From: Sulfurospirillum sp.
GTDB lineage: Bacteria; Campylobacterota; Campylobacteria; Campylobacterales; Sulfurospirillaceae
Assembly (NCBI GenBank): GCA_016744795.1
Contig: JADGDR010000010.1
Span: 1-64,000 of the forward strand
Reading direction: 5' to 3'
Length of the DNA stretch: 64,000 nt
Shown piece by piece: positions 6,104-30,654 of this stretch (the stretch's first letter is position 1; every line of letters starts with the position of its first letter). Made by a program: the position numbers and the translations under genes. The notes below the pieces were generated by a model, which was not told the DNA's origin, did no database searches, and was given only the letters and a program-made list of their open reading frames with translations.

Positions 6104-6117
6104 AAAAAAGGATGATT

Positions 6118-7698
6118 GTGGATAATCTGAGTATAAAGAGTAAAGTGTATATTATGTTGGCAATTTCTATGTTTGCTTTTATAACTATGAACTTATATAT
6201 AAGTTCACTTGTAAGTTCAAGTCAAAAAGAGACTTCTATCATTAATGTTTTGGGTAAACAAAGAATGCTAAGTCAAAAAATATCAAGAGAGATCCTTTCT
6301 TGGTATAAATTTAAAACACTTACATCTCTTGAAGGCATAAGAGACTCGTCTAATGCCTTTAACAAAGTAATACAAGAACAACAAAATGGAAAAATGTCTT
6401 TAGGAAATATGACCATAGAATTAAGAATGGATAATGAGTTTAAAAATAAAACCAATGAAATATACTCTTTATGGATTCCTTTTTATGAAAGGATTCAAAA
6501 AGTTATTGAACAAACAGAGAAAAACAATATAGCTAAATCGGAACTTCAAAAAGACCTCAAACTTTTGAAATTAAGTAATGATGCTGTAAAAATATATGCA
6601 CAACATTCAGAAGAAATAATGTCTAAAATCAATACTCTTTCATATTTGAATATTTTACTAAATATCATTATTATGGCAATAATTATATACACTTTTACAA
6701 CTCTTATATTAAGAAGATTAGAAAATGTTGCAAAATTTGCTGAAAATGTTGCAAAAACACAGGACTATACAAAAAAATTATCAATTATAAATAATGATGA
6801 GATAGGGAAAATTCTTACTCAAATCAATAATTTCATATCAAAAACTAAAGATTTAGTGCAAAATGCAAAAACAACTTCAAATGAGAATGCTGCAATAGCA
6901 AATCAACTCGCATCATCATCTATTGAAGTTGGTAAGTCTGCTCAAAAATCAATGATAATTGTAAATGAAACTACCCAAAAAGCAAATGAAACAAAAATAG
7001 AGATGCTCAAATCTATAGATAAAGTAGAAAATAACAAAAAAGAGATTATAGAAGCAAATAAAAGCCTTAACCAATCTAAAAATGATATTTACAAACTAAC
7101 AAAAACTATAGAAGAGAATACTAAAGAAGAGATGGAATTAGCTCTAAAAATAAAAGAGTTAAGTACAACAGCAACAGATGTGCAAAATGTACTTGGTATT
7201 ATAGGTGACATAGCAGATCAAACAAATCTTTTAGCACTAAATGCTGCTATTGAAGCTGCTCGTGCTGGTGAACATGGTCGTGGGTTTGCAGTTGTCGCTG
7301 ATGAAGTTAGAAACTTAGCAGAAAGAACACAAAAATCTCTTGGAGAAATTAGTGCGACAATAAATATCATTGTCCAATCTATTAATGATTCAAGTGAGCA
7401 AATGAATGAAAGTGCTCAAAAAAATCAAAAAATTTCTGATATGGCACAATCAACACAAGATAGAATAAGTAATATATCAGATACTATGCACCAAGCTTCT
7501 GCTGTCAACGAAGAAAGTGTGCGTGATTATGTAACAATGGGTAAAGAACTTAGTGAAATCATAACTCTAATAGAAAAAATAAATATAATCTCAACCCAAA
7601 ATGCAACAAACGTGGATGAAATATCAGGTGCAGCAGGTCATCTTACAGATATGACTAAAGAATTAAACAATAAGTTAAATCAATTTAAGACAAGTTAA
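6118..7698 (+). CDS. Methyl-accepting chemotaxis protein with PilJ-type sensor domain
   Basis: A membrane chemoreceptor. N-terminal membrane segment (about residues 11-31), then a periplasmic region opening with [19 protein letters not shown], the PilJ/NarX-like signature seen in nitrate-sensing receptors. A second membrane segment lies near residues 180-198, then a HAMP-like linker and a signalling domain whose hairpin tip reads [22 protein letters not shown] at 6112 is possible, but its AAAAGG would then touch the start codon. The in-frame GTG at 6118 has that Shine-Dalgarno at 6 bases, so I chose it. Family knowledge: PilJ-domain receptors such as McpN sense nitrate. Nitrate sensing here is inference, helped by nap genes 9-15 kb away. 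Confidence 0.88.
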
Positions 7699-15120: not shown

Positions 15121-15471
15121 CTATAATTTTTTCTTTAAATCTCCATTATATGTTATATCTTCTGCTCTTATTGCATCGTTTTTAAGTACATCTGGAACGA
15201 CATTACTCTTACCTAATTTTTCTCTCTCACGATCTAATTCATCTTCACTATAAGCCATCATCATCTCAGCAGAAATAACGTGTTTAAGAGCTTCAATCTT
15301 TCTAACATTTTCCATTTCCTGTTCTACTCCCTCTCCCTCAACTGTCACAATAATCTTGCCTATTGAAACATCGTGAAAGTGATAATCACAAAAATCACAA
15401 CTTTTAATCTCTTCTACTAAACCATCTATATATTCATTTCTTGCCTGTACTACTATACTTGATACGTTCAC
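15121..15471 (-). CDS. napD: NapA signal-peptide chaperone NapD
   Basis: A small cytoplasmic chaperone that binds the Tat signal peptide of NapA during cofactor insertion. 116 residues: an N-terminal ferredoxin-like fold (MNVSSIVVQARNEYIDGLVE, then GKIIVTVEGEGVEQE) typical of NapD, with a charged C-terminal tail. GTG start with AAGGA six bases upstream; no ATG fits. It starts 9 bases after the napL stop and is the last canonical nap gene, as in other Campylobacterota nap operons. Confidence 0.9.
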   Translation of the reverse strand: MNVSSIVVQARNEYIDGLVEEIKSCDFCDYHFHDVSIGKIIVTVEGEGVEQEMENVRKIEALKHVISAEMMMAYSEDELDREREKLGKSNVVPDVLKNDAIRAEDITYNGDLKKKL

Positions 15472-15480
15472 ACTTAATCC

Positions 15481-16434
15481 TTATTTTAATTTCCACATCA
15501 TTATAAATCTATCGTCACTTCCACTTACTAAAGTATTTTCGTCTACAAATACTATAGTATTGAGCGTACTTTTTTGTCCTTTTAAATTATACAATTCTTT
15601 ATCTGAAAATAAATCAAAAATTACAATATCATTATCCTCAGTAAAAGCAAAAGCAGCCTTATTAGCACTTGGACTCAATGCTCCAGCATATATAAGAAAA
15701 TCACCATCAAATCTACTATATGTGCCTGTATCTAGATCATATACTACACCTCTTCTATCTTGTCCGGCAGCTAAAACTTTTGATTTTTTTATATCTACTT
15801 TATATACATTATCAACATTAGCACCTTTTAATGTTTTAATTACTTTCCCATTTTCCACATTTAGTACAGTTATCTCACCAGATTCAGAACTACCTACTAA
15901 TATGCTTTTATCCAAACTCAGCATAAAATCTGAAAAATGTGAATAGCTTATATGAATACGATAAATTATCTTTTTTTCTTTTATGTCAAAAAGTATATAT
16001 TCATTACTTAAAAGTGCAATCATAATACGATTTTCATCTACAAATTTAGCTTTTGATATAAATAGTTTCTTTTTTTCACTTATAAGCTTAGTCTTTTTTC
16101 CATCTTTTATAACAAAAAGTTCACGTGAACCACTAACTCCTTGAACAACTGCTAGATATCTTTTTGAGATTTTAAGATAATCAGTAGAAAAAACTTTAGG
16201 ATATATATCGTCTCCCATGAAATCTTTAATCATAGGAAATTTAACTTTCATAATTTGATCTTTAGTACTCATTTTATATGATTCAATAGTACCTTTATCT
16301 GTACTAACAATAATCATATCATTAATTACAACAATATCTATTACATCTCCACTAGCTTCTATAAAATCATATGGTTTAATAGTGTGAGCTTGAACACTAA
16401 AAACCAAAAGGAAAATCGAGATTAACCACTTCAT
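15481..16434 (-). CDS. napL: NapL, periplasmic WD40-like protein
   Basis: 317 residues with an N-terminal signal peptide (MKWLISIFLLVFSVQA) and repeated beta-propeller-like segments, for example GSSESGEITVLNVENGKVI and the final VSGSDDRFIMMWKLK. NapL is found in Campylobacterota nap operons between napF and napD. Its role is not settled; Wolinella mutants show only mild effects on nitrate reduction. The ATG overlaps the napF stop by 4 bases, so it is coupled to napF. Function beyond nap association is inference. Confidence 0.86.
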   Translation of the reverse strand: MKWLISIFLLVFSVQAHTIKPYDFIEASGDVIDIVVINDMIIVSTDKGTIESYKMSTKDQIMKVKFPMIKDFMGDDIYPKVFSTDYLKISKRYLAVVQGVSGSRELFVIKDGKKTKLISEKKKLFISKAKFVDENRIMIALLSNEYILFDIKEKKIIYRIHISYSHFSDFMLSLDKSILVGSSESGEITVLNVENGKVIKTLKGANVDNVYKVDIKKSKVLAAGQDRRGVVYDLDTGTYSRFDGDFLIYAGALSPSANKAAFAFTEDNDIVIFDLFSDKELYNLKGQKSTLNTIVFVDENTLVSGSDDRFIMMWKLK

Positions 16435-16943
16435 AACTTCTCCCTAATTGCTTCATATTTAACCGCATATGGAGGACATACACTATAACAAAATCCACAA
16501 GAAGTACACTTGTCCATATCTATTGTAGGTCTAAAAACTCCAAGAAAGTTGATTGCATCTTCAAAACAAGCATCTTTACATGTACTGCACATTACACTAT
16601 TCCATGCTAAACAACTATTAATATTTATGCTAAATTTTGCTTTTATCTGATGCTCATTATTTAATACTAACACTTCACTTGGACATGCTTTTGAACACTC
16701 TTCACAAAATGTGCATCCACTTTTCTCAAAACTCAAAAATGGGATTTTATTTTCATCAAGTTTTATAATATCCTCTTCACAAATAGTGACACAAGGTGTT
16801 AACTCACACTCTGGGCACGATTTGTGAAAAGTAAATACATCTTGATTATAAGGTGGTCTTACATGTAAAGGTTTATCTGTTTTACTCTTTGTAAAACGAG
16901 AAGCAAGGGAAGCAAATGCTTCCCTTGAGCTTATATTAGCCAT
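16431..16943 (-). CDS. napF: NapF, cytoplasmic polyferredoxin
   Basis: 170 residues with several cysteine clusters for [4Fe-4S] centres: CPECELTPCVTICEED (about residues 39-54), CTFCEECSKACP, CSTCKDAC and CTSCGFCYSVCPPYA near the end. NapF proteins lack a signal peptide and act on the cytoplasmic side; in other bacteria they are linked to NapA maturation or to electron supply to NapH. Two bases separate it from napB and it overlaps napL, in the canonical nap order. Confidence 0.9.
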   Translation of the reverse strand: MANISSREAFASLASRFTKSKTDKPLHVRPPYNQDVFTFHKSCPECELTPCVTICEEDIIKLDENKIPFLSFEKSGCTFCEECSKACPSEVLVLNNEHQIKAKFSININSCLAWNSVMCSTCKDACFEDAINFLGVFRPTIDMDKCTSCGFCYSVCPPYAVKYEAIREKL

Positions 16944-16945
16944 TC

Positions 16946-17473
16946 TTACTGAACACCCTCATTTAGATTATCAAGTAAATTTGAGTGCTTCATACCATTT
17001 TGAGTTCTAAACTCTGGTTTGAATGTATTCTCTACCAAAGGCTCATTATCTGATTGAGGAGCATGACACTGAGTACAATTGTATCTAGCATTTGATACAG
17101 TTGCAAGTACCTTATCTTTTCTCATATCAAACAGATGTGACTTTGGAACTGGTGTTGCATTCACTGAAGCTGCAACCAAAGGATCATGACATCCTAAACA
17201 TGAATTGTTATCGATAGTTATTGGTAACATATCTTCAACTTCATGGGAAATCATAGGTGGTGCATTTTCAAACGCACGCTCATATACTTTTGACTCACCT
17301 GCAGCAACAGTACTATAAGAAGTTTTATCTCCTGTAGTAGTATTCTCTGTGTAAAGGTCAGTTTTCCTAAGCCCTAACGATTCTTCACTAATATTACTAC
17401 TCATAGCACATCCCGTTGCTATAATAGCTGTTAGTGTCGCAGCAGCTATAAGTGTCTTTTTACTAAACATCAT
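16946..17473 (-). CDS. napB: NapB, diheme cytochrome c subunit of nitrate reductase
   Basis: Receives electrons and passes them to NapA in the periplasm. Two haem c motifs, CLGCH and CTQCH, and the PPMISHEVEDMLPIT segment are typical of NapB. A longer frame opens at 17635 but overlaps napH deeply. The start MMFSKKTL, with AGGAGA upstream, gives a proper signal peptide and is chosen. Either of two adjacent ATGs (17473 or 17470) could be used. The signal peptide ends ATGC, a lipobox-like sequence, so the protein might be lipid-anchored rather than soluble; that is unusual for NapB. Confidence 0.92.
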   Translation of the reverse strand: MMFSKKTLIAAATLTAIIATGCAMSSNISEESLGLRKTDLYTENTTTGDKTSYSTVAAGESKVYERAFENAPPMISHEVEDMLPITIDNNSCLGCHDPLVAASVNATPVPKSHLFDMRKDKVLATVSNARYNCTQCHAPQSDNEPLVENTFKPEFRTQNGMKHSNLLDNLNEGVQ

Positions 17474-17480
17474 ATGTCTC

Positions 17481-18299
17481 CTATCCGTTTTTATTAATAT
17501 AATTTCTAATACCAAAGTGCAGTGCATCGTCATCACAAACTTCAATACATCTACCACAATTGGTACATTCTCCTGAACGCACATCTCCACTCTCTTTTCC
17601 GATAAAAGAGAGAATCTGCTTTTCAGGACATACATCTTTGCATTTCATACAAAGAGTACAATTTGGTTGATTATGTTTTACTCTTATGATGCTCAATTTT
17701 GATGCAACAGAATAAAACCCTCCTAATGGACATATATGTCCACACCAACCATTTTTAACCGCAAAAAGGTCAAATAAGAAGATTGACAGTACTGCTGCAA
17801 ATCCCATACCCATTCCAAATACTATACCACGATGTAGCATAGAAATTGGCGATATAATTTCAAAAGCAGCAACACTTGTAAAAGCTGACAAGATTAGGGA
17901 AAGAATTATTACCCAATACCTAACACCTCGTCCAAGCCAAACTCTTTTCTCCGTCTTATCAAGTAAGAGAACTCTTCTTAACCAATTTGCCAAATCAGTT
18001 ATCATATTTATCGGACACACCCAAGAACAAAATGCTCGTCCACCAATACTTACATAAAATAGCAACACTATTAAAGCACCTACCAATACATCTGCTCCAA
18101 GTAAAGCTCCTGCTGAAAACATCTGCGCTACGGCAAATGGATCAGATAAAGGAATCGTACCAAAAAGCAAAGATGAACTCAAAGTTCCTGTTAGAACATT
18201 GAACCCATATGCATTAGCGCTAAAATAAAGAGCCATAATACCAATTTGGCTAACTCTACGCAACATCAAAAAACGATATTTTTTTAGAAAATTACTCAT
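17481..18299 (-). CDS. napH: NapH, membrane quinol dehydrogenase subunit
   Basis: A membrane [4Fe-4S] protein that, with NapG, oxidises menaquinol and feeds NapB/NapA in organisms without NapC. 272 residues from the chosen start, with about four membrane segments, cysteine pairs of the NapH type (FCSWVCPIN, GWCGHICPLGG), and two C-terminal clusters CTLCMKCKDVCP and CTNCGRCIEVC. An in-frame ATG at 18314 exists. The ATG at 18299 (MSNFLKKY) is preferred because it has GAGG upstream and overlaps napG by only 8 bases. Confidence 0.92.
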   Translation of the reverse strand: MSNFLKKYRFLMLRRVSQIGIMALYFSANAYGFNVLTGTLSSSLLFGTIPLSDPFAVAQMFSAGALLGADVLVGALIVLLFYVSIGGRAFCSWVCPINMITDLANWLRRVLLLDKTEKRVWLGRGVRYWVIILSLILSAFTSVAAFEIISPISMLHRGIVFGMGMGFAAVLSIFLFDLFAVKNGWCGHICPLGGFYSVASKLSIIRVKHNQPNCTLCMKCKDVCPEKQILSFIGKESGDVRSGECTNCGRCIEVCDDDALHFGIRNYINKNG

Positions 18300-19116
18300 C
18301 GAACAGTACCTCATCAGAGTTTAAGTAATCTTGAGGAACAAGTTCACTTCTTTTTGTTCGAGTTGTAACATCCACTGAAACATCATTTAAACGTTTTTCA
18401 TCGTCTGGATCCCAACCTTTTATGTAATGTCCCCCGATTTTACCTTGGGCAATCTCATGAGGTAGTACAAAAATAGCTGCCTTTTGTGTTACACAAGCAC
18501 GTTCACATAAACCACACCCTGTACAAGCTTCGCTCATAACTTTTGGTATCAAAAGTGCATGTTTTCCTGTTCTCTTATTTCTCTTATACTCAAGAACAAT
18601 AGCTTTATCCATTAAAGGACAAGCACGATAACAAGCATCACACTGAATTCCCCAAAAAGCGATGCAAGACTCTTCGTCAACGACGGCAAGTCCCATTTTA
18701 GACTTATTTATATCTAAAACTTTTTCACCTTCAACGACACTAGATACACTTTCCTCATCTAAAGCTCCTGTAGGGCATACGGGAACACAAGGGATATCTG
18801 TACACATATAACATGGTACATCTCTTGGAATGAAGTACGGAGTACCCATAGGTTTATTATCTCCTGGTTTTGCCATGAGTAAAGTGTCAAACGGACATGC
18901 TTCAGCACACTGTCCACACTTTATACACATACGCAAAAAATCAGTTTCAGGTTTTGCACCAGGAGGACGCAAAATCAGCGGTGCTGACTTTGCTTCCTCT
19001 ATATAACCAGTCCAAACCATTCCACCTAATGCCGACAAACCAACACTTTGTGCCATTACAGAAAGAAATCTTCTTCTTTTAGTAATAACCGGTTTTTTTG
19101 AATCAAGATTGCTCAA
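18292..19116 (-). CDS. napG: NapG, periplasmic ferredoxin subunit
   Basis: 274 residues. An N-terminal Tat signal with RRRFLSVMAQSVG (about residues 14-26) sends the folded FeS protein to the periplasm. Four [4Fe-4S] motifs follow, including CIKCGQCAEACP, CYMCTDIPCVPVCP and CTGCGLCERACV. With NapH it forms the menaquinol-oxidising module of Campylobacterota nap systems. Start is TTG with AAAGGA seven bases upstream. It follows napA by 18 bases. Confidence 0.93.
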   Translation of the reverse strand: MSNLDSKKPVITKRRRFLSVMAQSVGLSALGGMVWTGYIEEAKSAPLILRPPGAKPETDFLRMCIKCGQCAEACPFDTLLMAKPGDNKPMGTPYFIPRDVPCYMCTDIPCVPVCPTGALDEESVSSVVEGEKVLDINKSKMGLAVVDEESCIAFWGIQCDACYRACPLMDKAIVLEYKRNKRTGKHALLIPKVMSEACTGCGLCERACVTQKAAIFVLPHEIAQGKIGGHYIKGWDPDDEKRLNDVSVDVTTRTKRSELVPQDYLNSDEVLFDE

Positions 19117-19134
19117 AACAATCCTTTTCCTATA

Positions 19135-21957
19135 TTACGCTTTGTAAAGCTTAACAGCACATTTTTTATAGTCTGTTTGCTTTGACATCGGACAAGTAGC
19201 ATCTAGACAAACTTTGTTTATAAACACTTTCTCATCAAACCACGGAACAAAAATAAGCCCTTTTGGAACTCTATTTCTTCCTCTAGTCTCAACCCTAGCT
19301 CTTACCTTACCACGACGTGATTCAACCCAAATAAGTTCACCTTGTTTAAACCCTTTAGTTTTAGCATCACCTGGATTAATAAAACATAAAGCTTCTGGAA
19401 CGGCGCGATATAATTCAGGTACACGCATAGTCATTGTTCCACTATGCCAATGTTCAAGAACACGTCCTGTACACATCCAAGTGTCATATTTTGAATCAGG
19501 CATCTCTGGAGGATCCATATATGGTCTAGCAAATATTTTGGCTTTATTTTTCAAGCTTTTCTTAGTCTTATCTTTAATACCAAGTAAATCACCTTGAGAA
19601 AGAGCTTTTGCTAATGGACCGTAGAATGCAAAATCTGCTCCATTTGCAGCTTTTCTTGCATACGGATCATATTTAGCATTAAATCTCCATTGAGTCTCTT
19701 TTCCATCTACAACTGGCCATTTCAATCCTCTTACTCTATGGTAAGTGTCAAAATCTGCCAAGTCATGAGCATGACCACGACCAAAGTTAGCATACTCTTC
19801 AAAAAGATATTTATGAAGAAAGTAACCATAACCTTCAAATACTTTTCCATCTGAGCCTATAACATCTCTGCTATCACCATTACACTCAGAATTATCATAT
19901 CCTGCTTGAATTGGATCTTTTAAATCAATTTTATATGATTTTGCTCTCTCATTTGCAAAAAGGATTTCAAACATAGTTGTATCTTCATTATATCCCATTG
20001 CTTTTGCTTTTGCTATTACATTTGGAAGTTTTTTGTTACCACGAAGTGGTTGCTGACCCCAAACATCTTTAACAGTAAATCTTTTTGAAAGTTCAACCCA
20101 TTGCCATGTATCACTCATAGAATCACCTACTGGAAGAACTTGTTGTCTCCAGTGCTGTGTACGACGCTCTGCATTACCATAAGCTCCCCACTTCTCATAA
20201 ATCATAGCAGTTGGAAGAATAAGGTCAGCTACTTTTGCGCTTATTCCAGGATAACCATCACTACAAACAATAAAGTTATCCATTTTTCTTGCTGCTTTTA
20301 TCCAGTGATTTGCACTTGCTGAATCTTGATATGGATTACATACATTTACCCATGCAAATTTTATAACACCATCTTCTATATCTCTATGAATCTTCATAAT
20401 ATGTTGATTACCAACTGGATTTAGAGTTCCATCAGGAATTTTCCAGCTTTTTTCAACTATTTTTCTATGTTTTCCACTTTTTACCATCATATCTGCTGGT
20501 AATCTGTGACAGAATGTTCCAACTTCACGAGCAGTTCCACAAGCACTTGGTTGTCCTGTAAGACTAAAAGCACCATTTCCTGGCTTAGCTTGTTTTCCTA
20601 ATAAAAAGTGCACATTATATGCTAAAGTATTTACCCATGTACCACGTGTGTGTTGATTCATACCCATAGTCCAGAAAGATACTACTTTTCTACCTTTTTC
20701 AACGTAAAGTTTAGCTAATAATTTAAGCTTCTTTTTGAAGCTGTCAATTGACTCATCAGGATCACCCTTAGAGATTTTAGCTACATAGTCTAATGTATAA
20801 GGAGCTAAGAACTTTTTATACTCTTCAAATGAGATTTCCCAATGCTTTAGACCAGCTGGTTTGTGAACCATCTTGTCTCCAGCTTTATAACCATAAGGTG
20901 CAAGAGCAGGTGCTTCTTTTTGTGAAACAATAGTCTCCATCTCATGATTGATAATTTCCATCTCTTTTGCTGAATATTTACCAGCACTACCATCTGCTCT
21001 TACTGGTAAAAGTGACTTCTCACCAGCTCTTCTCATACCATAGCCCATATTTACTGGACTTGCTGCAAATACAATATGCTTTTTAACAAAATCCCAATCA
21101 ATTGCCTCAGGATAGTTATATACTATCTCTCTAGCAACATAATTCCATAATGCTAAATCTGTATTTGGAGAAAAGATTATTTCAGTATCTGAAAGATCAG
21201 AACATCTGTGTCTGTAAGTAGAAATATTTACTACTTTAACTTTATCTGGGCTTGAAAGTTTTCTGTCTGAAACACGTGACCAAAGAATTGGGTGCATTTC
21301 AGCCATATTTGCTCCCCATGTTATAATTGTATCAGTTAACTCGATATCATCATAACAGCCACTTGGCTCATCTATACCGAAAGTTTGGTAAAAACCAACA
21401 ACGGCACTTGCCATACAATGACGAGCATTTGGATCGATTGCATTAGAACGGAATCCACCCTTCATCATCTTTTGTGCTGCGTATCCTTCCATAACAGTAT
21501 ACTGTCCTGAAGCAAATACACCAACACCTTCTGGTCCACTAGCCTTAAGTGCCTTTTTGATATTGACTTCCATCTCATCAAATGCTCTTTTCCAGCTAAT
21601 TGGTTGAAACTTACCGTTTTTATCAAACTTACCATCTTCTCCTACACGAAGTAATGGTTGTTTTAAACGATCTGCACCATACATGATTTTTGCATTAAAA
21701 TAACCTTTAATACAATTAAGTCCACGATTGACCGGAGCTGCCGGATCACCTTTTACTGCGACAATTTTTCCGCCTTTAGTTGCAAGCATGATACCACAAC
21801 CGGTACCACAAAAACGACAAGCGGCCTTGTCCCATCTCCATCCTGACTCAGCCTTAGCTACTGCTGCACGAGCCTCTTGTGGTACTGTTATTCCCACTGC
21901 TGCTGCTGCACTTACTGCTGCTGTTGTCTTAAGAAAGTCTCTTCTTGAAAGCGACAT
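19135..21957 (-). CDS. napA: NapA, periplasmic nitrate reductase catalytic subunit
   Basis: Reduces nitrate to nitrite in the periplasm. 940 residues with a Tat signal SRRDFLK at the start (cleavage after about residue 31). An N-terminal [4Fe-4S] site [12 protein letters not shown] comes next, with its fourth cysteine in GLNCIKG, then the molybdenum-ligand cysteine in ARHCMAS, and a bis-MGD fold to the end. The length suits the Campylobacterota NapA. It leads the operon napA-G-H-B-F-L-D, followed by a PAS protein. A Crp/Fnr-type palindrome and -10 box lie upstream. A mobB gene for the molybdenum cofactor is elsewhere in the window. Confidence 0.97.
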
Positions 21958-22017: not shown

Positions 22018-22031
22018 ATGACTTATGTCAA
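22018..22031 (-). promoter_or_regulatory. Crp/Fnr-type operator upstream of napA
   Basis: Reading with napA the site is TTGAC-ATAA-GTCAT, an inverted repeat with the half-site length and 4-base spacer of Fnr/DNR/NnrR operators. The near-identical TTGAC-CTAA-GTCAT occurs before the Hao operon (29630-29643). A further half-site-like TGACATAG is visible between it and napA. Two Crp/Fnr proteins with an ETLSR recognition helix are encoded nearby. Binding itself is inferred. Confidence 0.55.
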
Positions 22032-22051: not shown

Positions 22052-23422
22052 TTATTCTACCTTTTGTGAATTTTCTACCATTGTATTTAAATTTGCTTTT
22101 AATTTTTCTAACATTTTTCTTACATGTATCAGGTTTTCTGCTGACTCTATTGCTATATCTTCTGTAGCATTTACTTCTTTATCAAAATTGGCTTTTTCTT
22201 TCTTGTCAATTTTTAAATCTTGAAGAGTATTTTCAACATTATCAGCTAAGTGTTGGAGTTCTAAAACTGCTGATTCTGCTTGTTTTATTGCATCTTCAGA
22301 GTGATTCATAGCTACATTTACTTTTTTAACAAAATTTGAAAGATAATTAGATGCTTCTATTAACTCATCTTCGCTCTCTTCATCTCCTTTTATATGTCTA
22401 TGATTAAGATTTTTAATATTATCACTATCTAAAGCCTTAGTTCTTTTTACAAAATTGTTAATATGATTAACTATCTCACGAGAGAGTATATAAGAAAAAA
22501 GTATAAGAATAAGGGCTATAATAAGTGATATATATTGAAACTTTATAAAAAAACTATTTTTATCTTCACTATACTCTGTATAGAGCCAAACTGCTGCATC
22601 CATTGTGTTGAGTAGTTTAATGTTTTTTTCATATATATATGAAATAGAGTCATTTATACTGTTTTCAACTTGTAAAATATTTAATATATACTTTTCATGT
22701 GCTTTCCAATACTTATATGTTTTTTCTACACAATTATAAACTTCCGGAATATCTTGAACTTCTTTATTATTTATAAACCTATTAATTGTTTCATTATATA
22801 AGTTTTTTGCCTTTATAAATTGCAGATAATCTTCTTCATTATCAGTTCTTAAGTATTTTTCAACAAAAAGACTCATTCTTTGTGAAAGCATTCTTTGCCT
22901 ACCAGAGAGATCAATAAATTCACCACTCATATTGTTTTTAACCATAATTTTTACAATTTTATCTGATTCCGCTAGAAGTGATGTTGTTCTTCCTGTTAAA
23001 GTTTCTAAATCATTCTTTATAAAAACTACTGCTTTTCTTACTTTTTCTACCTCTTTTTTAAAAGGAATCCAAAGTGAATTAACTTTTTCTAATTTAGATT
23101 TTATTTTGACATTTTGAGGAAGATAAATACCTTTTACTGAATTACCATGAATAAGATCATTAAGATTATTATCAAATAAATCAATAGCACTATTGAGCTC
23201 TCTAAAATCTGTACTTTGTCTATATTTTATATAAAAGATTTCTTTACTCATCTTCTGAGTAAGCATCCTCTGTTTTCCTGCAATATTTATAATAAGAGAA
23301 TCTTTTTTACTTTTTTCATTCATAACTACTGTAAGTGTTATTACACATACAATTATAAAAGACAACGTACCTCCAGCAAAGTGTAGTTTCTTGTTTATCC
23401 CTCTTAGTTTTAACATTCCCAT
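22052..23422 (-). CDS. Membrane receptor with two PilJ/NarX-like sensor modules and no output domain
   Basis: 456 residues. N-terminal membrane segment (about 14-32), then a periplasmic region with two P-box-like repeats: NIAGKQRMLTQKMSKEIF and, about 130 residues later, DLSGRQRMLSQRMSLF. These resemble the nitrate-binding helix of NarX/NarQ and PilJ-domain receptors. A second membrane segment lies near residues 295-315, followed by a HAMP-like and coiled-coil tail. No histidine kinase, methyl-accepting hairpin, GGDEF or EAL motif is present. It starts 8 bases after the Crp/Fnr gene, so the two are probably cotranscribed, directly before nap. Nitrate or nitrite sensing is inference. Confidence 0.78.
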   Translation of the reverse strand: MGMLKLRGINKKLHFAGGTLSFIIVCVITLTVVMNEKSKKDSLIINIAGKQRMLTQKMSKEIFYIKYRQSTDFRELNSAIDLFDNNLNDLIHGNSVKGIYLPQNVKIKSKLEKVNSLWIPFKKEVEKVRKAVVFIKNDLETLTGRTTSLLAESDKIVKIMVKNNMSGEFIDLSGRQRMLSQRMSLFVEKYLRTDNEEDYLQFIKAKNLYNETINRFINNKEVQDIPEVYNCVEKTYKYWKAHEKYILNILQVENSINDSISYIYEKNIKLLNTMDAAVWLYTEYSEDKNSFFIKFQYISLIIALILILFSYILSREIVNHINNFVKRTKALDSDNIKNLNHRHIKGDEESEDELIEASNYLSNFVKKVNVAMNHSEDAIKQAESAVLELQHLADNVENTLQDLKIDKKEKANFDKEVNATEDIAIESAENLIHVRKMLEKLKANLNTMVENSQKVE

Positions 23423-23430
23423 TTCTAATC

Positions 23431-24087
23431 CTATTCGTAAATATCTCTTAATTCATCTAAATTTAGTATTTTTACACAGTTTTTTTCTATCTCAATTATC
23501 CCGTTTCTTGTCAATTTTTTTAAAATTCTTGAAAGAGTTTCTGGCTGAATATGAAGCATATATGCTGTTTCATGTTTTTTAAATGCATTAAAGTTTTTCA
23601 AATCATTTACTAACATATGAGCAACTTTTGCAGTGCCATCAAAAACAACATCACGACTAATTATACACTGAAGTTGTTGAATCATTCGAAATGACTCTTT
23701 TAATACAACTTTCATAAAATCATGGTTTGTTTGCATTAACTCTTTAAATCCTATACAATCAAAAACCAACACTCTACTATCTTCTAGAAACTCAGCATTT
23801 GCATAACAACTCATAATATACTTATCACACATTTTTCCAATGTCAAAAACTAAAGAGTTTGAGATTATCTTATATAAAAAAATTTCATTATCAAATCTAT
23901 CTACTTTATAAAATTTGATAACACCTTCAAGAAGGTAAAAAATCTCATTTTGATTATCTTTTTCATAAAAAAGAACATCAGAGTTAACATAATCTTTTAA
24001 AGTTGTTATTTTTGATAATTGTTCTAAAGCATTGTCATCTAAAGAATTAAAAAAAGTTATACTTTTAAGAAGGTTTACATCTACCAA
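23431..24087 (-). CDS. Crp/Fnr-family transcription regulator
   Basis: 218 residues: an N-terminal cyclic-nucleotide-like beta-barrel (about 10-120), a long dimer helix, and a C-terminal winged helix with LHIQPETLSRILKKLTRNG as the recognition region. The E-x-x-S-R pattern is that of Fnr/DNR rather than Crp. There is no Fnr-type N-terminal cysteine cluster, so an oxygen-labile [4Fe-4S] centre is unlikely; the signal may be NO or another nitrogen oxide. TTG start with AGGA eight bases upstream. It sits between the Hao and nap operons, each preceded by TTGAC-N4-GTCAT, which makes it a candidate regulator of both. Confidence 0.88.
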   Translation of the reverse strand: MVDVNLLKSITFFNSLDDNALEQLSKITTLKDYVNSDVLFYEKDNQNEIFYLLEGVIKFYKVDRFDNEIFLYKIISNSLVFDIGKMCDKYIMSCYANAEFLEDSRVLVFDCIGFKELMQTNHDFMKVVLKESFRMIQQLQCIISRDVVFDGTAKVAHMLVNDLKNFNAFKKHETAYMLHIQPETLSRILKKLTRNGIIEIEKNCVKILNLDELRDIYE

Positions 24088-24122: not shown

Positions 24123-24674
24123 CTAAGGTCTGTAAAATATCCATAAAGTTTTTACTTTATTTTCACTTTTCATTTGAATATTAATGATTGATTGAGGATA
24201 AATATTATGATTTAGAAGATAATCATTTAGTGCTTTTTCCATATTATCAACTCTATTTGGAACTTTCAAAAAACCAATACGAACAGAATCAGTATTGCTA
24301 ACATATGGTTTAAAAGTATCATTAGTAGATGTGGTATCATACTCTCTCACCATACCTTGCCCAAACATATTTGAAAAAGATGAACCACTTTGTGCATTTA
24401 AAATTTCATTAAAAAATGGATTTTGAAATTCCAACATATCACCTTTTCCATTTAAGACATAAAAGTTTTTTGCCCCATAATCATCTTCCGTTATGACACT
24501 TGCCCCCTCTTTTAAATCATTAGGAATTTTACTAATGTCTTCATAAACTGTAGTTTCTGATATTATTTGTGACAAAAATTTACTATCTTTATTGTCACTT
24601 TTTATCTTTAGTGTTTGCAAATCAATAGCAAATACTAAAGATAAAGAGAAAAAGAATAGCAAAAAAACTTTCAC
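24123..24674 (-). CDS. Unknown exported protein, Hao-nap region (B)
   Basis: 183 residues with an N-terminal signal peptide (MKVFLLFFFSLSLVFA), no cysteine-haem motif and no recognisable domain. Visible features are a GKGDMLEFQNPFFNEIL segment and the end TLWIFYRP. It overlaps the preceding exported protein by 4 bases, so the two are translated together, and a Crp/Fnr gene follows 35 bases on. Its place between Hao and nap genes suggests a periplasmic role linked to nitrogen-oxide respiration, but the sequence gives no direct evidence. Confidence 0.7.
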   Translation of the reverse strand: MKVFLLFFFSLSLVFAIDLQTLKIKSDNKDSKFLSQIISETTVYEDISKIPNDLKEGASVITEDDYGAKNFYVLNGKGDMLEFQNPFFNEILNAQSGSSFSNMFGQGMVREYDTTSTNDTFKPYVSNTDSVRIGFLKVPNRVDNMEKALNDYLLNHNIYPQSIINIQMKSENKVKTLWIFYRP

Positions 24675-25315
24675 TGTTTTTTTGCCATTTTACTTTGCAT
24701 ATCTTCTATAAGTTTATTTGAAGAGTATATCAAATATGCTGATGCATCAGTATATATCAACTCTTTATTAGTTATTTCTTTTGAACAACTAAGTTTTATA
24801 GTTGCATAAGGGTCATATTTTTTAACTACTGCTTCTGGTTTTAAACTTTCTACTAAAGTAGAACTTTTATCCTGTTTTTTAACCTTTTCTTTAAAAGCTT
24901 TCATATCTTCTTCAGAGATTTGTTTTCCATCTTTATCATAACTCCAATAGACTAATTTATCATGAGCAAAAGCCGTTGGATCACCAAAATTCAACATAGC
25001 ACTACCAAACAATCCTTTTGCCTCTTTATTATCTACATTATCATAACTTTTGTACATAACAATCACTCTATCATCACTCTTAGTTGCTATAACAAAAAGA
25101 TCTTTATCACTAAATTTATAAGTACCCTCAACTGCTTTTTTTATAGCATTTTTTTTTGCAATTTTAAGTTGTTCAACTGTAAGCTTTTTCCCTAATATAT
25201 ACCCATTAGTTCCTATTTTTAAAGAAGCAACTTTATCTGATATATTCTCAGCATTTGCAAATCCAAAGATAAAACACAGTGACAATATAGTCAAAATCTT
25301 TAATGTTAATTTCAT
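24671..25315 (-). CDS. Unknown exported protein, Hao-nap region (A)
   Basis: 214 residues with a signal peptide (MKLTLKILTILSLCFIFGFANA). The body is lysine-rich and includes GTNGYILGKKLTVEQLK, DDRVIVMYKSYDNVDNKEA and a single cysteine in KLSCSKEI. I do not recognise a family. It starts about 100 bases after the Hao gene, beyond two strong hairpins, and has AAGGATTGAT before the ATG. It overlaps the next exported protein by 4 bases. It may be read at lower level than Hao from the same transcript or from its own promoter. A small periplasmic partner of the cytochromes is possible but unproven. Confidence 0.7.
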   Translation of the reverse strand: MKLTLKILTILSLCFIFGFANAENISDKVASLKIGTNGYILGKKLTVEQLKIAKKNAIKKAVEGTYKFSDKDLFVIATKSDDRVIVMYKSYDNVDNKEAKGLFGSAMLNFGDPTAFAHDKLVYWSYDKDGKQISEEDMKAFKEKVKKQDKSSTLVESLKPEAVVKKYDPYATIKLSCSKEITNKELIYTDASAYLIYSSNKLIEDMQSKMAKKQ

Positions 25316-25417: not shown

Positions 25418-27007
25418 TTACTGCTTATATCTTGATTTATTCTCAGCATTTAACTCTTTAAAGAAATCAGCATTATTAGGGTTTCCACCCGTTTTTATCC
25501 AAACATGCTCAGGCTTAGCAAGTAAGTCAGCTATCATTTTCTTATATTTAGCACCTTTTCCAGCTTTATCAGCCATCTTTTGTACTTTTGGTAAGAATTT
25601 TGAGTAGAAGTGACGAGATACTTCATACATACCATGCCAATGAGTATAATCAGGACCCATCATAGCAGCACCATGTCTTGCTCTACGACCTTCGTGATGC
25701 CAGATTTCAAACCAGATATATCCCATATCATCTTGTTGGAATCCAGATTTCTTCCAAATTTTGTCTTTTTTCATCTCTTTAACAATCTTAAGTCCTGGTT
25801 TAATAAACTTATTATTGTAAGTATATACTAGGCTGTCATATTGTTTATAGAAATTAAGAGTTTGGGAACTTGAATGACAAGATACACAAACACCTTGCAT
25901 ATTTGCTCTTCTCTCTTTCCAATCAATTACCTTAACAACTTTTTTCTTTTTCATAGACTTAACAAGCTTATCGCCTTTTCTGTCATATGCTTTGTAAGTT
26001 GTCATATCTCCAACTCTTGGTGGTTTTTCACCTGCAACATCGTAAACTGTACCATCTTCAAAAATAACACGGTTTAGTTTAACTGATAATGGAGCTCTTA
26101 AATTCCAAGAAATTCTATCACTAACATTGTGAGTTCCTTTTACAACACCACCAGATGAAGTTTTGTAAGCACCCATATGACAAGTTGAACAAGTAGGAGC
26201 TGCATGGTAATCTTTTCCAAGAATCCATTTACCTTTTTTATAAATGTTCATACCACCCTTAACAGCACCTTTTGGTGAAGCATAGTAAGCAATACCGTGC
26301 TTAGACTCTTCATAAATCTCTTTTTGAGGATGATCAGGTCCAAGGTGACATTTACCACAATTCTCTGGTTGTCTTGCTCTACTTGAACTAAAATCATGCT
26401 TTGAGTGACAAGCGTTACAAGAACCTTTTGAACCATCTGGATTAATTCTTCCTATTCCAGAGTTTGGCCATGTCATATATGTAGTCATAGGAGCACCAGC
26501 TTCGTTGTAAATCATCTTTCCTTTTTTATCTTTTTGGAAAGCAACAACAGAGCCATGACACTGCCAACAACCATTAACTGCATCAGCTTTTGTATCTGGG
26601 AATGATGCAATAACCTCTCCAAGTAAGTTATCTAGTGATGCCATAATCTGACCAGCAGTTGCATGATGAGAATTTGTCATCTCTTTAACTTCATTTTCAT
26701 GACAGAACTTACAATCATTTGGAGTCATAATTGTTTTTATGAACGCGCCTTCGTGTTCATAACCTGTAGGATCTTTCTTGTCTGCCGCATGACAAGTATA
26801 ACATCCAACCTTTGAATCTGCGTGAACAGAATGATCCCACTGATCAACCAATGATCTGTTCTCCTTAAGATGACAAGTAAGACATTTGTCATTCTTGTCG
26901 ACAACACCCTCGTTTCTCACCTTTGAAGATGCCTTTGTAGCTGCAAATGCGCTACTCGCTAAACCAATTGCTAACAACGTAGCAACGATAAGCTTACCTA
27001 ACTTCAT
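25418..27007 (-). CDS. hao: Octaheme cytochrome c of the hydroxylamine oxidoreductase family (epsilon-Hao-like)
   Basis: 529 residues with a signal peptide to about residue 22 and eight CXXCH haem motifs at about 42, 69, 99, 147, 197, 217, 273 and 374. After the last haem the tail WHHEGRRARHGAAMMGPDYTHWHG (two joined pieces around residues 436-459) is typical of HAO-family octahemes. No CXXCK (as in OTR) and no CX15CH (as in MccA) is seen. In Campylobacterota such proteins are thought to reduce nitrite or hydroxylamine rather than oxidise hydroxylamine. Whether Tyr454 or another residue matches the cross-linking tyrosine of Nitrosomonas HAO needs an alignment. ATG at 27007 has GGAGATC upstream; a longer frame to 27037 lacks a start site and is rejected. 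Confidence 0.85.
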   Translation of the reverse strand: MKLGKLIVATLLAIGLASSAFAATKASSKVRNEGVVDKNDKCLTCHLKENRSLVDQWDHSVHADSKVGCYTCHAADKKDPTGYEHEGAFIKTIMTPNDCKFCHENEVKEMTNSHHATAGQIMASLDNLLGEVIASFPDTKADAVNGCWQCHGSVVAFQKDKKGKMIYNEAGAPMTTYMTWPNSGIGRINPDGSKGSCNACHSKHDFSSSRARQPENCGKCHLGPDHPQKEIYEESKHGIAYYASPKGAVKGGMNIYKKGKWILGKDYHAAPTCSTCHMGAYKTSSGGVVKGTHNVSDRISWNLRAPLSVKLNRVIFEDGTVYDVAGEKPPRVGDMTTYKAYDRKGDKLVKSMKKKKVVKVIDWKERRANMQGVCVSCHSSSQTLNFYKQYDSLVYTYNNKFIKPGLKIVKEMKKDKIWKKSGFQQDDMGYIWFEIWHHEGRRARHGAAMMGPDYTHWHGMYEVSRHFYSKFLPKVQKMADKAGKGAKYKKMIADLLAKPEHVWIKTGGNPNNADFFKELNAENKSRYKQ

Positions 27008-27063
27008 GTAGATCTCCTTTTTATATTTTCCGACCAACCAACCACTGAACCAAACTCTGATTA

Positions 27064-28242
27064 TTAATGAGTTAACTCTCTATCACATTCACTTTCCCAA
27101 AGAGGAAAAATCTTACTTAAAATCCAAAGTGTAACTATCGGAGCTACAAGCATTATAATAGTTACTAAAATACCCTCCTTTTCAAAGAACTGAGGGTGAT
27201 AAACAGCAAAGCCTCTTTCACTCTTTGCCATAATCTGCCCACCTATAACAACATTCCATCTCATAAATAAAACTTGTGCTAAAAGCATAAAAGACACTAT
27301 TGGTCCTATGATTAATAGGGTACTTCTGCTTACTTTTGAAAGTGATAACCACATTAGAATTAAAAATGGAACGATTGAAAGTAACTTAATTTGCATAGTC
27401 CAAAATGACCAATCAAGTGGACCATTTAATGCAGCTGCTACATGATGCCAACCTTCAGTTCCACCATATGCATGAACTGAAAGTTCAATCAATTCAAACA
27501 AAAAGTCAAATATAAAAAATGCCCAAAGAAGTTGAATCATAACTTTGATAGTCTCTGTCTTTACCTCTGCTAACTTTCCAGTCATCTTTTTTATACCTAT
27601 GTAAAATAAAATCATACCTGCAATCCCAGAAACAGAAGCAGATAATAAAAATATGATAGGCATAAGTGGCGTAAACCACCACTCAACACTTTTTAATGCA
27701 CCAAAAATAAATCCAACATATCCATGAAGTGAACATGCTAATGGTATGCCAATAGCCGCCATTACAAAAGCTACCTTAGAATCTCTTTTTCTTCCTGCCA
27801 TGCTTTCATCATTTGTTCCTAGTGTCAATACGCAATATATAACTTTTTTAACTCCAATTGCACTCTTTTTAAGAATGGTTAACTCATATCTATAGATAAC
27901 AAGTATTTCAAAAATAAGTAAAATCGAATAAGCCATGTAAATATAACCAAATCCACTCATCATGGATGGTCCGACAAAATTTGGTGTAAAGAGCATATTT
28001 AAAGCACGCTCTGGATGCCCAAGATGATTTATAAGTGGAGCTGTAACAAACAGTAACCAAGATAGCGCAAATATGAGCGCAAACTTAGCAACTGGCATAA
28101 GAGCTTTTACATGAAAAACATGAGCAAGAGCTGAAACAATAAATGCACCAGCAACAACACCCGTAATATACGGATAAATAACAATCATCAAAGTCCAATG
28201 AGCATGTATGTCATTTGGAAAAACGTAGTTTAAAATATCCAT
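27064..28242 (-). CDS. NrfD/PsrC-type quinol-interacting membrane subunit
   Basis: 392 residues with about ten hydrophobic segments, the size of the longer NrfD-family proteins (PsrC, TtrC, CbcU). The start MDILNYVFPNDIHAHWTLM and the segment PLINHLGHPERALNM are typical of this family, whose members exchange electrons with menaquinone for a partner FeS protein. Its start overlaps the stop of the FeS gene by one base. It lies between that gene and the octaheme gene, so it probably forms the quinol module that feeds the Hao-like enzyme. The direction of electron flow is inferred. Confidence 0.87.
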   Translation of the reverse strand: MDILNYVFPNDIHAHWTLMIVIYPYITGVVAGAFIVSALAHVFHVKALMPVAKFALIFALSWLLFVTAPLINHLGHPERALNMLFTPNFVGPSMMSGFGYIYMAYSILLIFEILVIYRYELTILKKSAIGVKKVIYCVLTLGTNDESMAGRKRDSKVAFVMAAIGIPLACSLHGYVGFIFGALKSVEWWFTPLMPIIFLLSASVSGIAGMILFYIGIKKMTGKLAEVKTETIKVMIQLLWAFFIFDFLFELIELSVHAYGGTEGWHHVAAALNGPLDWSFWTMQIKLLSIVPFLILMWLSLSKVSRSTLLIIGPIVSFMLLAQVLFMRWNVVIGGQIMAKSERGFAVYHPQFFEKEGILVTIIMLVAPIVTLWILSKIFPLWESECDRELTH

Positions 28243-29048
28243 TATATTACCTCCTCATGAGCACCAACATAAAATAGTGCTGGCTCATTTCCTAGACTTT
28301 TTTTAAGTACTTTTAATACTGTTTTAGAATTATATATCTTAGCTACTTCACTTTTTGGGTCATTTAAATCACCAAATTTTCTTGCCCCTGTTGGACAAGC
28401 ATTAACACATGCAGGAAGTTTTCCTTTGCTAATACGGTGATAACACCAAGTACATTTATCTGCTGTTTTTGTATCATTGTTTATAAAACGTACACCATAA
28501 GGACATGCTTGAACACAATATCCGCAAGCAACACAGTGAGAATTATCTACTAATACAAAACCATCTGGTGATTTAAATGTTGCTGCAACTGGACAGACTT
28601 GAACACAACTTGGCTCTTCACACATATTGCAAAGTTTTGGAACAAAAAAAGCATCTTTTATCTTTTCTTTTATATCCGTCCTTGGTTTAGAATATCCCTT
28701 TTCACCACCTTCAGGTGAATCAACATAAACAGTATTGTATATATCAATCACATATCTCTCCACCCAAGTTCTATATTGTCCTTGCGGTACGCTGTTCTCT
28801 TTTCTGTCAGCAACGCAACAACTACCACATCCAATGCAACCAGTAACATCCACCATAAATGCATAATGTTTTGCTTTGTCTTTTGGGTCTATTAAACTTA
28901 CTAGTTTACTGTCATCTCCTGCAACCTTGGCAAAAAGTTTAGAATTCATAGGAATCATAAGCATTAAACTTCCTGCAATTGAGCCTTTAACAACTTTTTC
29001 GATGAAACCTCTTCTATCTTTATCGATAAAATTTTGATCAATTTTCAT
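28242..29048 (-). CDS. NrfC/PsrB-type [4Fe-4S] protein
   Basis: 268 residues. A Tat-like signal with DRRGFIEKVVKGSIAGS at the start sends it to the periplasm. The body has four [4Fe-4S] clusters of cysteines: CIGCGSCCVADRKEN (the second motif reads CC), CNMCEEPSCVQVCP, CVACGYCVQACPYGV and CTWCYHR with CVNACPTGA. This is the usual NrfD partner. It overlaps the tetraheme gene by 4 bases and NrfD by one. Together they form a cytochrome/FeS/NrfD unit similar in composition to CbcSTU of Geobacter, an analogy drawn from family knowledge. Confidence 0.88.
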   Translation of the reverse strand: MKIDQNFIDKDRRGFIEKVVKGSIAGSLMLMIPMNSKLFAKVAGDDSKLVSLIDPKDKAKHYAFMVDVTGCIGCGSCCVADRKENSVPQGQYRTWVERYVIDIYNTVYVDSPEGGEKGYSKPRTDIKEKIKDAFFVPKLCNMCEEPSCVQVCPVAATFKSPDGFVLVDNSHCVACGYCVQACPYGVRFINNDTKTADKCTWCYHRISKGKLPACVNACPTGARKFGDLNDPKSEVAKIYNSKTVLKVLKKSLGNEPALFYVGAHEEVI

Positions 29049-29569
29049 TGTGAGACCTCCTCTTTAAGTGTCCTTAATTCATGCATCTTCTTAATAATAT
29101 TCATATTTTCTAAAGGCTCATGTACTGTATGACACTGATCACAAGTATGCGTTAATTTTACATCTAACTCTTCTAAGTGTTTAATATGCTCAATCATAGG
29201 AAATTTTTCTGGACGACCTGCTACTTTAGCATGGCAAGTTAAACAAAGTTCAATCTGTTTATCACCTTTTCTAACAGGCATATCACCTATCTTTTTACCA
29301 TCTTTTACATGAACAGTAACAGGACCATGACAAATCTCACAGGATAATCTTTTGTGTGTCCCCTCTGCTTTTAATTCATAAATTTCTTCATGACACTTTT
29401 CACAAGACTTGTTTGTACCATAAACTAAATCTCGAGAAGCCTCTTCTTGAATGTACCCTCCACGATAGTAACCATACTCACCCCAACTTTTTGGAATTAA
29501 TACTGCTCTACCAATTAACACTAATGCTACTATACCCGCAAACACTAGTACAAGGCGCAAATAAAACAT
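29045..29569 (-). CDS. Membrane-anchored tetraheme cytochrome c
   Basis: 174 residues: one N-terminal hydrophobic segment (about 3-22) likely uncleaved, then four CXXCH motifs (CEKCH, CEICH, CLTCH, CDQCH). The spacing (THKRLSCEICHGPVTVHV, CDQCHTVHEP) differs from NapC/NrfH proteins, so I do not call it HaoC/NrfH, although the role could be similar. It leads the operon tetraheme-FeS-NrfD-octaheme. ATG at 29569 has AGGAG six bases upstream. A Crp/Fnr-type palindrome lies about 60-75 bases upstream. Confidence 0.85.
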   Translation of the reverse strand: MFYLRLVLVFAGIVALVLIGRAVLIPKSWGEYGYYRGGYIQEEASRDLVYGTNKSCEKCHEEIYELKAEGTHKRLSCEICHGPVTVHVKDGKKIGDMPVRKGDKQIELCLTCHAKVAGRPEKFPMIEHIKHLEELDVKLTHTCDQCHTVHEPLENMNIIKKMHELRTLKEEVSQ

Positions 29570-29629
29570 ATGTACTCCTAATAATAAAACTTTATAATGA
29601 AAGTGTACAAATTCATAAGAACATTAACA

Positions 29630-29643
29630 ATGACTTAGGTCAA
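29630..29643 (-). promoter_or_regulatory. Crp/Fnr-type operator upstream of the Hao operon
   Basis: Reading with the operon the site is TTGAC-CTAA-GTCAT, the same as the napA site except in the spacer. Its centre is 67 bases before the start codon. The best -10-like sequence downstream (TATAAA, 29596-29591) would put it near -52, so the exact promoter is uncertain. Confidence 0.5.
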
Positions 29644-29646
29644 AAA

Positions 29647-30015: not shown

Positions 30016-30654
30016 TTAGTTCGCATACATTTCTACCAAAGCATTTTCATCTAATACTTTAAAGTTTTCATCGGTCCTTATTAGTCCACGTTTTTTGAAC
30101 TTTGTAAGAGTTCGAGAGAGTGTCTCTGGAGTTAGGTTTAAAAGTGAGGCTACTTTTGTATTTTTTAAAGTACTAAAAAGTTCTCCATTTTCTACTAAAA
30201 ATTTTGCTATTTTAGCTTCTGAAGTTAATACAATTTCATTAGTTATAACTTCACTCATAATTTTTAATTTGCCTGCGAGTGATTTAATAATTTGAAAAGA
30301 GAGTTCGGGATTTTTAAAAAAGCCCTCTTCAAGTTTTTTATAATCAATCTTGAGTATTTCGCCTCTACATGTAAACTCAGCAGTAGCAGGGTAAGGAATA
30401 TTTTCAAAGTTAGCAAGTTCAGCAATAAGACTTACTGGCAAAAATTGGTGTAAAAAGATTTGATTACCCTTGTAATTTGTTTTATAAAGTCTTACTATAC
30501 CATCAAGCAGTACATGTAAATATTTTGGCTCTTCACCTTCAAAAAAAAGTATCTCTTTTGAGTTGTACTTTTTTATACTTGATATATCTTTTAATTTTTT
30601 TAGACCGTCTTCACTTAAGTGCGAAAAAAATGGAATTTCTTTTATTCTATTTAT
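30016..30654 (-). CDS. Second Crp/Fnr-family regulator, apparent ATA start
   Basis: The frame codes a full-length regulator of 212 residues: an N-terminal barrel (IKEIPFFSHLSEDGL, then EGEEPKYLHVLLDGIVRLYK), a dimer helix and an HTH with LTPETLSRTLTKFKKRG. No ATG, GTG or TTG begins it. The first possible codon with a good ribosome site is ATA at 30654, seven bases after GGAG, in the place where an ATG would be expected. The only standard start in frame, TTG at 30441, would remove about a third of the barrel. Either a rare ATA start is used or the start codon has been lost. It has no Fnr-type cysteine cluster. It lies directly upstream of the Hao operon on the same strand. Confidence 0.72.
   Translation of the reverse strand: MNRIKEIPFFSHLSEDGLKKLKDISSIKKYNSKEILFFEGEEPKYLHVLLDGIVRLYKTNYKGNQIFLHQFLPVSLIAELANFENIPYPATAEFTCRGEILKIDYKKLEEGFFKNPELSFQIIKSLAGKLKIMSEVITNEIVLTSEAKIAKFLVENGELFSTLKNTKVASLLNLTPETLSRTLTKFKKRGLIRTDENFKVLDENALVEMYAN

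Follow-up and report, generated by a model that had tools for sequence, protein, structure and literature searches.

An HAO-type octaheme cytochrome with an NrfCD-like electron feeder beside nap in Sulfurospirillum: a probable nitrite/hydroxylamine reductase

A four-gene module in the haoCA slot

Beside the periplasmic nitrate reductase (nap) genes of a Sulfurospirillum sp. lies an operon that combines an octaheme cytochrome of the HAO family with iron-sulfur and membrane subunits of NrfC and NrfD type, which raises the question of what this octaheme acts on and how it receives its electrons. The operon is carried by a stretch of 64,000 nucleotides (GenBank assembly GCA_016744795.1, contig JADGDR010000010.1, positions 1 to 64,000), termed here the window. 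Its genes follow one another on the minus strand: c4, encoding a membrane-anchored periplasmic tetraheme cytochrome c (29045..29569; four CxxCH motifs, one N-terminal transmembrane segment, PF14522/PF14537), FeS, a four-cluster ferredoxin of NrfC/PsrB/TtrB type (28242..29048; PF13247, 6e-27), an NrfD-type membrane subunit with multiple transmembrane segments by hydropathy (27064..28242) and an octaheme c-type predicted reductase with the HAO fold (25418..27037; PF13447, 1e-17). All four open reading frames are intact, as the initial annotation had described them, and are separated by gaps of -4, -1 and 26 bp. In a survey that gathered 80 loci from other genomes, several of them on truncated contigs, the octaheme was found in 78, NrfD in 72, FeS in 68 and c4 in 59, and a conserved secreted fifth gene, u214, accompanied the octaheme in 68. 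The four-gene module is real and lies far beyond chance, its gene order being repeated across tens of independent genomes.

The position of the module is occupied by a different octaheme system in close relatives. In a genome of the same genus (G399) the order is Crp-haoC-haoA-ppi-Crp-PilJ, the two Crp/Fnr-family regulators and the PilJ-domain protein being respectively 87%, 83% and 90% identical to their neighbours in the window, and a genome of the same family (G061) carries haoC-haoA-(309 aa)-Crp-PilJ-NapAGHBF, whereas in the window and in a family-mate (G400) the slot holds c4-FeS-NrfD-octaheme-u214-u183. The NapC/NrfH-type HaoC is thus replaced by c4, FeS and NrfD, and the ppi gene by u214. 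HaoC and NrfH match the NapC/NirT family PF03264 (at about 1e-30 for the HaoC of loci L056 and L057) but the Pfam scan gave no such match for c4, which by its sequence is not NapC/NrfH-like. Since haoC-haoA-ppi and the module alternate in the same slot and only HaoC matches PF03264, HAO-type octahemes with an NrfH-like and with an NrfCD-like feeder replace each other at one locus. The earlier proposal that an FeS/NrfD module takes the place of HaoC is therefore borne out by synteny, and at the slot beside nap an exchange of electron-delivery systems seems to have occurred. The feeders of NrfHA and NrfABCD have been described (PMC12285233), and by analogy the module would relate to HaoCA as NrfABCD does to NrfHA, with the same kind of catalyst and another electron feeder. 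Such a swap within one genus offers a natural experiment on whether it is the feeder, rather than the catalyst, that determines how much energy is conserved and how much hydroxylamine leaks during nitrite ammonification.

The octaheme and its predicted electron-feeding subunits

The octaheme contains exactly eight CxxCH motifs, and a motif count found no CxxCK, the active-site heme motif that defines the octaheme nitrite reductase (ONR) of TvNiR type (PMC12285233). Its listed start is a TTG at 27037; a typical Sec signal peptide begins ten codons further in, at an ATG (27007), which is the probable start. In a phmmer search of the PDB, IhOCC of Ignicoccus hospitalis (4qo5) was the best match at 4.5e-43, followed by HAO-family chains at about 1e-9 to 1e-13, and a profile of 18 octaheme members left the order of IhOCC and HAO unchanged, with NrfA reaching only 1e-4. 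The AlphaFold2 (AF2) model, with a mean predicted local distance difference test score (pLDDT) of 73, superimposed on 4qo5 with a Z of 22.7 and a root-mean-square deviation of 3.7 over 393 residues, on HAO and HDH chains with Z of 15.6-19.0, on NrfA with Z of about 8 and on ONR with Z of 7.4-7.9. IhOCC, although the nearest solved structure by both sequence and fold, is archaeal and only about 28% identical, and its position in the tree is not settled, the sequence being partial. OTR was absent from the sequence and structure matches, which does not exclude a relationship.

At the position of the tyrosine that forms the HAO cross-link, an alignment with a HaoB-linked HAO of Ruegeria pomeroyi placed Trp467, with slight doubt owing to a one-residue gap nearby; Trp467 is invariant in all 18 aligned module and epsilon-Hao sequences. 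The tyrosine asked after in the initial annotation is thus missing, and the lack of this critical residue is what tells N-oxide-reducing members of the family from the oxidising HAOs (PMC3701875). The Asp-His pair of HAO is kept in the module octaheme, Asp235-His236 corresponding to D267-H268 of NeHAO in the phmmer alignment to 1fgj, while the residue for the tyrosine cross-link to heme 4 (P460) is not. Together with the family membership, this pair would favour an HAO that oxidises hydroxylamine and passes the electrons to the quinone pool, but the tryptophan in every aligned member, the window gene list, in which no haoB or cytochrome c554 gene lies nearby, and the anaerobic nitrate context make such an activity very improbable.

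Phylogenetic analysis of 99 octaheme sequences, in a tree whose root is not fixed, placed 79 module octahemes in one group (support 100 in the SH-like approximate likelihood ratio test, SH-aLRT), apart from 16 epsilon-Hao sequences (support 99). Within the module group the Campylobacterota copies were separate from 70 others, nearly all of them from Desulfobacterota (support 100). Fold comparison and tree together thus uphold the assignment to the HAO family. As for the comparison with epsilon-Hao, the common HAO fold stands but membership does not, the module octahemes forming a clade of their own shared with Desulfobacterota. Epsilon-Hao (HaoCA) is alike in lacking the cross-link tyrosine, in its slot beside Crp-PilJ-Nap and in an operator upstream, and differs by an identity of only about 34-38% and by a shorter segment between hemes 7 and 8. 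In vitro, epsilon-Hao reportedly converts nitrite into ammonium and hydroxylamine (Haase et al. 2017). The corresponding segment of the module octaheme, residues ~316-372, is predicted to be rich in beta structure and is far shorter in epsilon-Hao; it is a possible docking surface for c4.

The FeS protein has 16 cysteines with four-cluster spacing and an N-terminal twin-arginine-like motif, DRRGFIEK, as a putative Tat leader. Its best PDB match is PsrB (2vpw_B, 8e-46) and it matches the TtrB, DsrO and NrfC models, in each case below the equivalog cut-off (159.9 of the 377.6 bits needed for NrfC), so that by sequence it appears closest to TtrB/PsrB/NrfC-type proteins. The NrfD subunit likewise scored 49.9 bits with the NrfD equivalog model against 347.6 needed, with a strong superfamily match (PF03916, 2e-35) and no match in a PDB sequence search. 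In NrfABCD of gammaproteobacteria, too, a periplasmic multiheme donor, an NrfC-type ferredoxin and NrfD feed an ammonifying cytochrome (PMC12285233); there the cytochrome is the pentaheme NrfA and the donor NrfB, whereas the module has an HAO-type octaheme and a membrane-anchored tetraheme, and misses the NrfC and NrfD equivalog cut-offs.

The likeness of FeS and NrfD to TtrB and PsrB, and the fact that carriers of the module are mainly sulfur-cycling Desulfobacterota, could point to a reductase for sulfur oxyanions (sulfite, tetrathionate or polysulfide), the alternative that Slobodkina et al. offered for a locus of T. dismutans (PMC5276818). The octaheme, however, is much closer in fold to HAO and IhOCC than to the MccA structures 4rkm and 4rkn (Z of 22.7 as against 5.3-5.4), and no sequence match to MccA was found at 0.001. 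The alternation with haoCA at one locus also speaks against this activity, as do the linkage to nap and nrf and the common operator described below, and we consider it improbable.

A shared promoter element and the predicted function

Upstream of c4 lies the 21-mer TTTGACCTAAGTCATTGTTAA (29624-29644), of which the 2.68 Mb genome holds a single other copy at up to three mismatches, located upstream of nrfH with one mismatch; the reversed control held none. Within the 21-mer is the putative Crp/Fnr-type operator TTGACCTAAGTCAT (29630..29643, minus strand), which precedes the start of c4 by 61-74 bp, and the corresponding core upstream of napA reads TTGACATAAGTCAT (22018..22031, minus strand). 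The core TTGACNNAWGTCAW occurs at five sites genome-wide, at the module, napA, nrfH, a Rieske/cytochrome b operon and inside a DNA-polymerase-like gene, and at none in the reversed control. Related sites were present upstream of c4 in three other loci (L068, L071, L073) and upstream of haoC in a further three (L056, L057, L059). The TTGAC-N4-GTCAA shape fits an operator of the Crp/Fnr family, two regulators of which flank the module, and as a sequence element common to nrfHA and napA it supports a nitrate/nitrite role of the module. The copy just upstream of the Rieske/cytochrome b operon (G000:C7:351668-351681; loci L152, L157) hints that the same regulator might also govern the bc1 complex.

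A link to nitrate also appeared among other carriers. NapD scored above cut-off in 24 of 41 carriers outside Campylobacterota, as against 15 of the 197 Desulfobacterota genomes drawn as background (Fisher p 2e-12). Full-length NrfA was found in 2 of the same 41 carriers as compared to 39 of the 197 (Fisher p 0.02). Altogether full-length NrfA was missing in 45 of the 49 other carriers examined.

The module is most probably a quinol-driven periplasmic nitrite/hydroxylamine reductase with NrfBCD-like electron supply, which would complete with Nap a nitrate-to-ammonium route beside NrfHA. Menaquinol would be oxidised at NrfD, the four-cluster FeS protein would accept the electrons and the membrane-anchored c4 would relay them to the octaheme, which would reduce nitrite (and hydroxylamine) at a single open heme, mostly to ammonium; hydroxylamine leaking from the octaheme might be removed by Hcp. 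This path, the substrate and the product are modelled on homologues, and expression of the operon and assembly of its products into a complex are presumed. T. dismutans, a nitrate ammonifier that lacks NrfA and carries the locus beside nap, would by analogy be consistent with such a role.

A genome search for nrfA and hcp found both, NrfHA on contig C23 (NrfA with CxxCK) and Hcp on contig C9. The initial annotation, which had not included NrfHA, envisaged a complete route beside nap; the nitrate/nitrite role is supported by the operator common to nrfHA and napA, but the module is not the organism's only way from nitrite to ammonium. Since the genome also encodes NrfHA and Hcp, the module would represent a parallel route, and defence against nitrosative stress becomes the strongest competing explanation: the module would detoxify hydroxylamine, NO or nitrite leaked by Nap and leave respiratory ammonification to NrfHA. 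Such a task would agree with the occurrence of the module in sulfate reducers without detectable Nap, with hcp lying co-directionally and directly upstream of c4 in two Desulfobacterota loci (L093, L101) and with the detoxifying role of NrfA itself in some sulfate reducers (PMC12285233). The module nevertheless does not stand alone, being placed in the nap neighbourhood and sharing the nrfHA operator; its dedicated NrfD/FeS quinol module suggests a respiratory flux, and NrfA is missing in most carriers. Stress defence as its main function is accordingly rather unlikely in our judgment. A third hcp homologue lies near the module in L095, on the opposite strand. Hcp was dropped as a co-occurrence marker because the Prismane model probably also detects CO dehydrogenases, which raises the Desulfobacterota counts.

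Several observations weigh against a respiratory nitrite/hydroxylamine reductase. With NrfHA present, this genome does not need the module in order to ammonify, and in T. dismutans further octahemes (Otr, TDIS_1483; PMC5276818) are candidates as well. The NapD and NrfA co-occurrence tests ignore shared ancestry and the incompleteness of metagenome-assembled genomes (MAGs), and nitrate respiration is not the universal context of the module, because about 40% of the carriers outside Campylobacterota show no NapD above cut-off. If the reductase is what we propose, its implications extend to genome surveys, which often rely on nrfA (and onr) to recognise ammonifiers: as 45 of 49 other carriers are without full-length NrfA, users of the module would be missed.

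Distribution, related loci and neighbouring genes

The module is widespread in Desulfobacterota. Among 397 Campylobacterota genomes drawn, it was present in 4, including the present one, and epsilon-Hao-type octahemes were present in about 80; none of the 4 carriers gave a second octaheme match. In Campylobacterota the module is scattered over MAGs of Arcobacteraceae, Sulfurovaceae, Sulfurospirillaceae and Sulfurimonadaceae, and this patchy distribution suggests that it may have spread horizontally. DEAH helicase, NUDIX, adenylosuccinate synthetase and GalT genes recurrently adjoin the module in Desulfobacterota, but this seems to be no more than synteny among closely related genomes, and they were not retained as partners.

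The arrangement has a precedent in a locus of T. dismutans, evidently homologous judging by sequence, that was published in 2017. T. dismutans and D. thermophilus, which ammonify nitrate without NrfA, carry an 11-gene cluster in which napMADGH is joined by two periplasmic genes of unknown function and by a set of four, for a multiheme cytochrome, a transmembrane cytochrome, an FeS protein and a protein of NrfD type; it was suggested that this locus may reduce nitrite (PMC5276818). In the T. dismutans locus recovered here (L137) the gene order is identical, the two unknowns being u214 and a porin-like gene; identity is 42-60% over c4, FeS, NrfD and octaheme, and the octaheme falls in the module clade. 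It differs in its NapMADGH-type Nap and absent NrfA, the present genome having a Campylobacterota-type Nap, NrfHA, and two Crp regulators and a PilJ protein bordering the module. Across the open-licence literature (subscription papers lay outside it) we found no report of the module in Campylobacterota, of its alternation with haoCA or of the shared operator. The new points are the in-place alternation with haoCA, the operator common to nrfHA, the separate clade and the conserved fifth gene. The module is a conserved, portable and probably respiratory one that had already been glimpsed in Thermodesulfobacteriota, and the 2017 guess becomes directly testable in mesophilic relatives. More tentatively, it may add another architecture to the respiratory nitrite reductases that form ammonium, next to NrfHA/HaoCA and NrfABCD. 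In that case it would have passed between Desulfobacterota and Campylobacterota and ousted HaoCA from its slot; the change from an NrfH-type to an NrfD-type feeder would alter how much proton-motive force is conserved in nitrite respiration, and u214 would be a fifth subunit, or an assembly factor, that had gone unrecognised.

The genes downstream of the octaheme lie on the same strand as the module. The product of u214 (24671..25315), absent from the initial annotation and kept with the octaheme across phyla, had no Pfam, NCBIfam or PDB sequence family match. Its AF2 model is confident (pLDDT 90), yet Foldseek returned nothing below E 0.1 and VIA-align only weak matches, the best with DUF4309/YjgB (Z 6.6) and others with PsbP and Mog1-like structures (Z of about 4); these scores are too weak for a fold or function to be named. 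The sixth gene, u183 (24123..24674), likewise newly noted, encodes a small secreted protein with no family in the Pfam scan, and was present in 5 of the 80 loci, every one from Campylobacterota. It is followed by a Crp/Fnr-family regulator (23431..24087; PF13545), a PilJ-domain, NarX-like sensor protein (22052..23422; PF13675) and the napAGHBFLD cluster (15121..21957), identified by its NapA (1429.6 bits, cut-off 904) and by homology to the nap clusters of relatives, with a NapD family match at 15241-15471. The upstream border of the slot is the second Crp/Fnr-family regulator (30019..30654, minus strand; 212 codons), found by tblastn at 87% to an intact homologue in G399. The start aligned to this homologue reads ATA rather than ATG behind a good ribosome-binding site, and ORF callers therefore shorten the gene to 141 aa.

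Some loci showed variant arrangements. In Sulfurospirillum sp. Kmv13 (L145) the module lacks u214 and is directly preceded by an extra diheme cytochrome c (5734-6441), and its octaheme is the most divergent of the Campylobacterota copies. A Thermodesulfobacteriaceae MAG (L100) encodes a second, distant octaheme (1143-2441; about 24% identity) directly upstream of the module. Finally, a mobilisable plasmid of Desulfosarcina ovata (L149) carries a NapC-type cytochrome and an octaheme in a haoCA-like pair beside norR and the large subunit gene of nitric oxide reductase.

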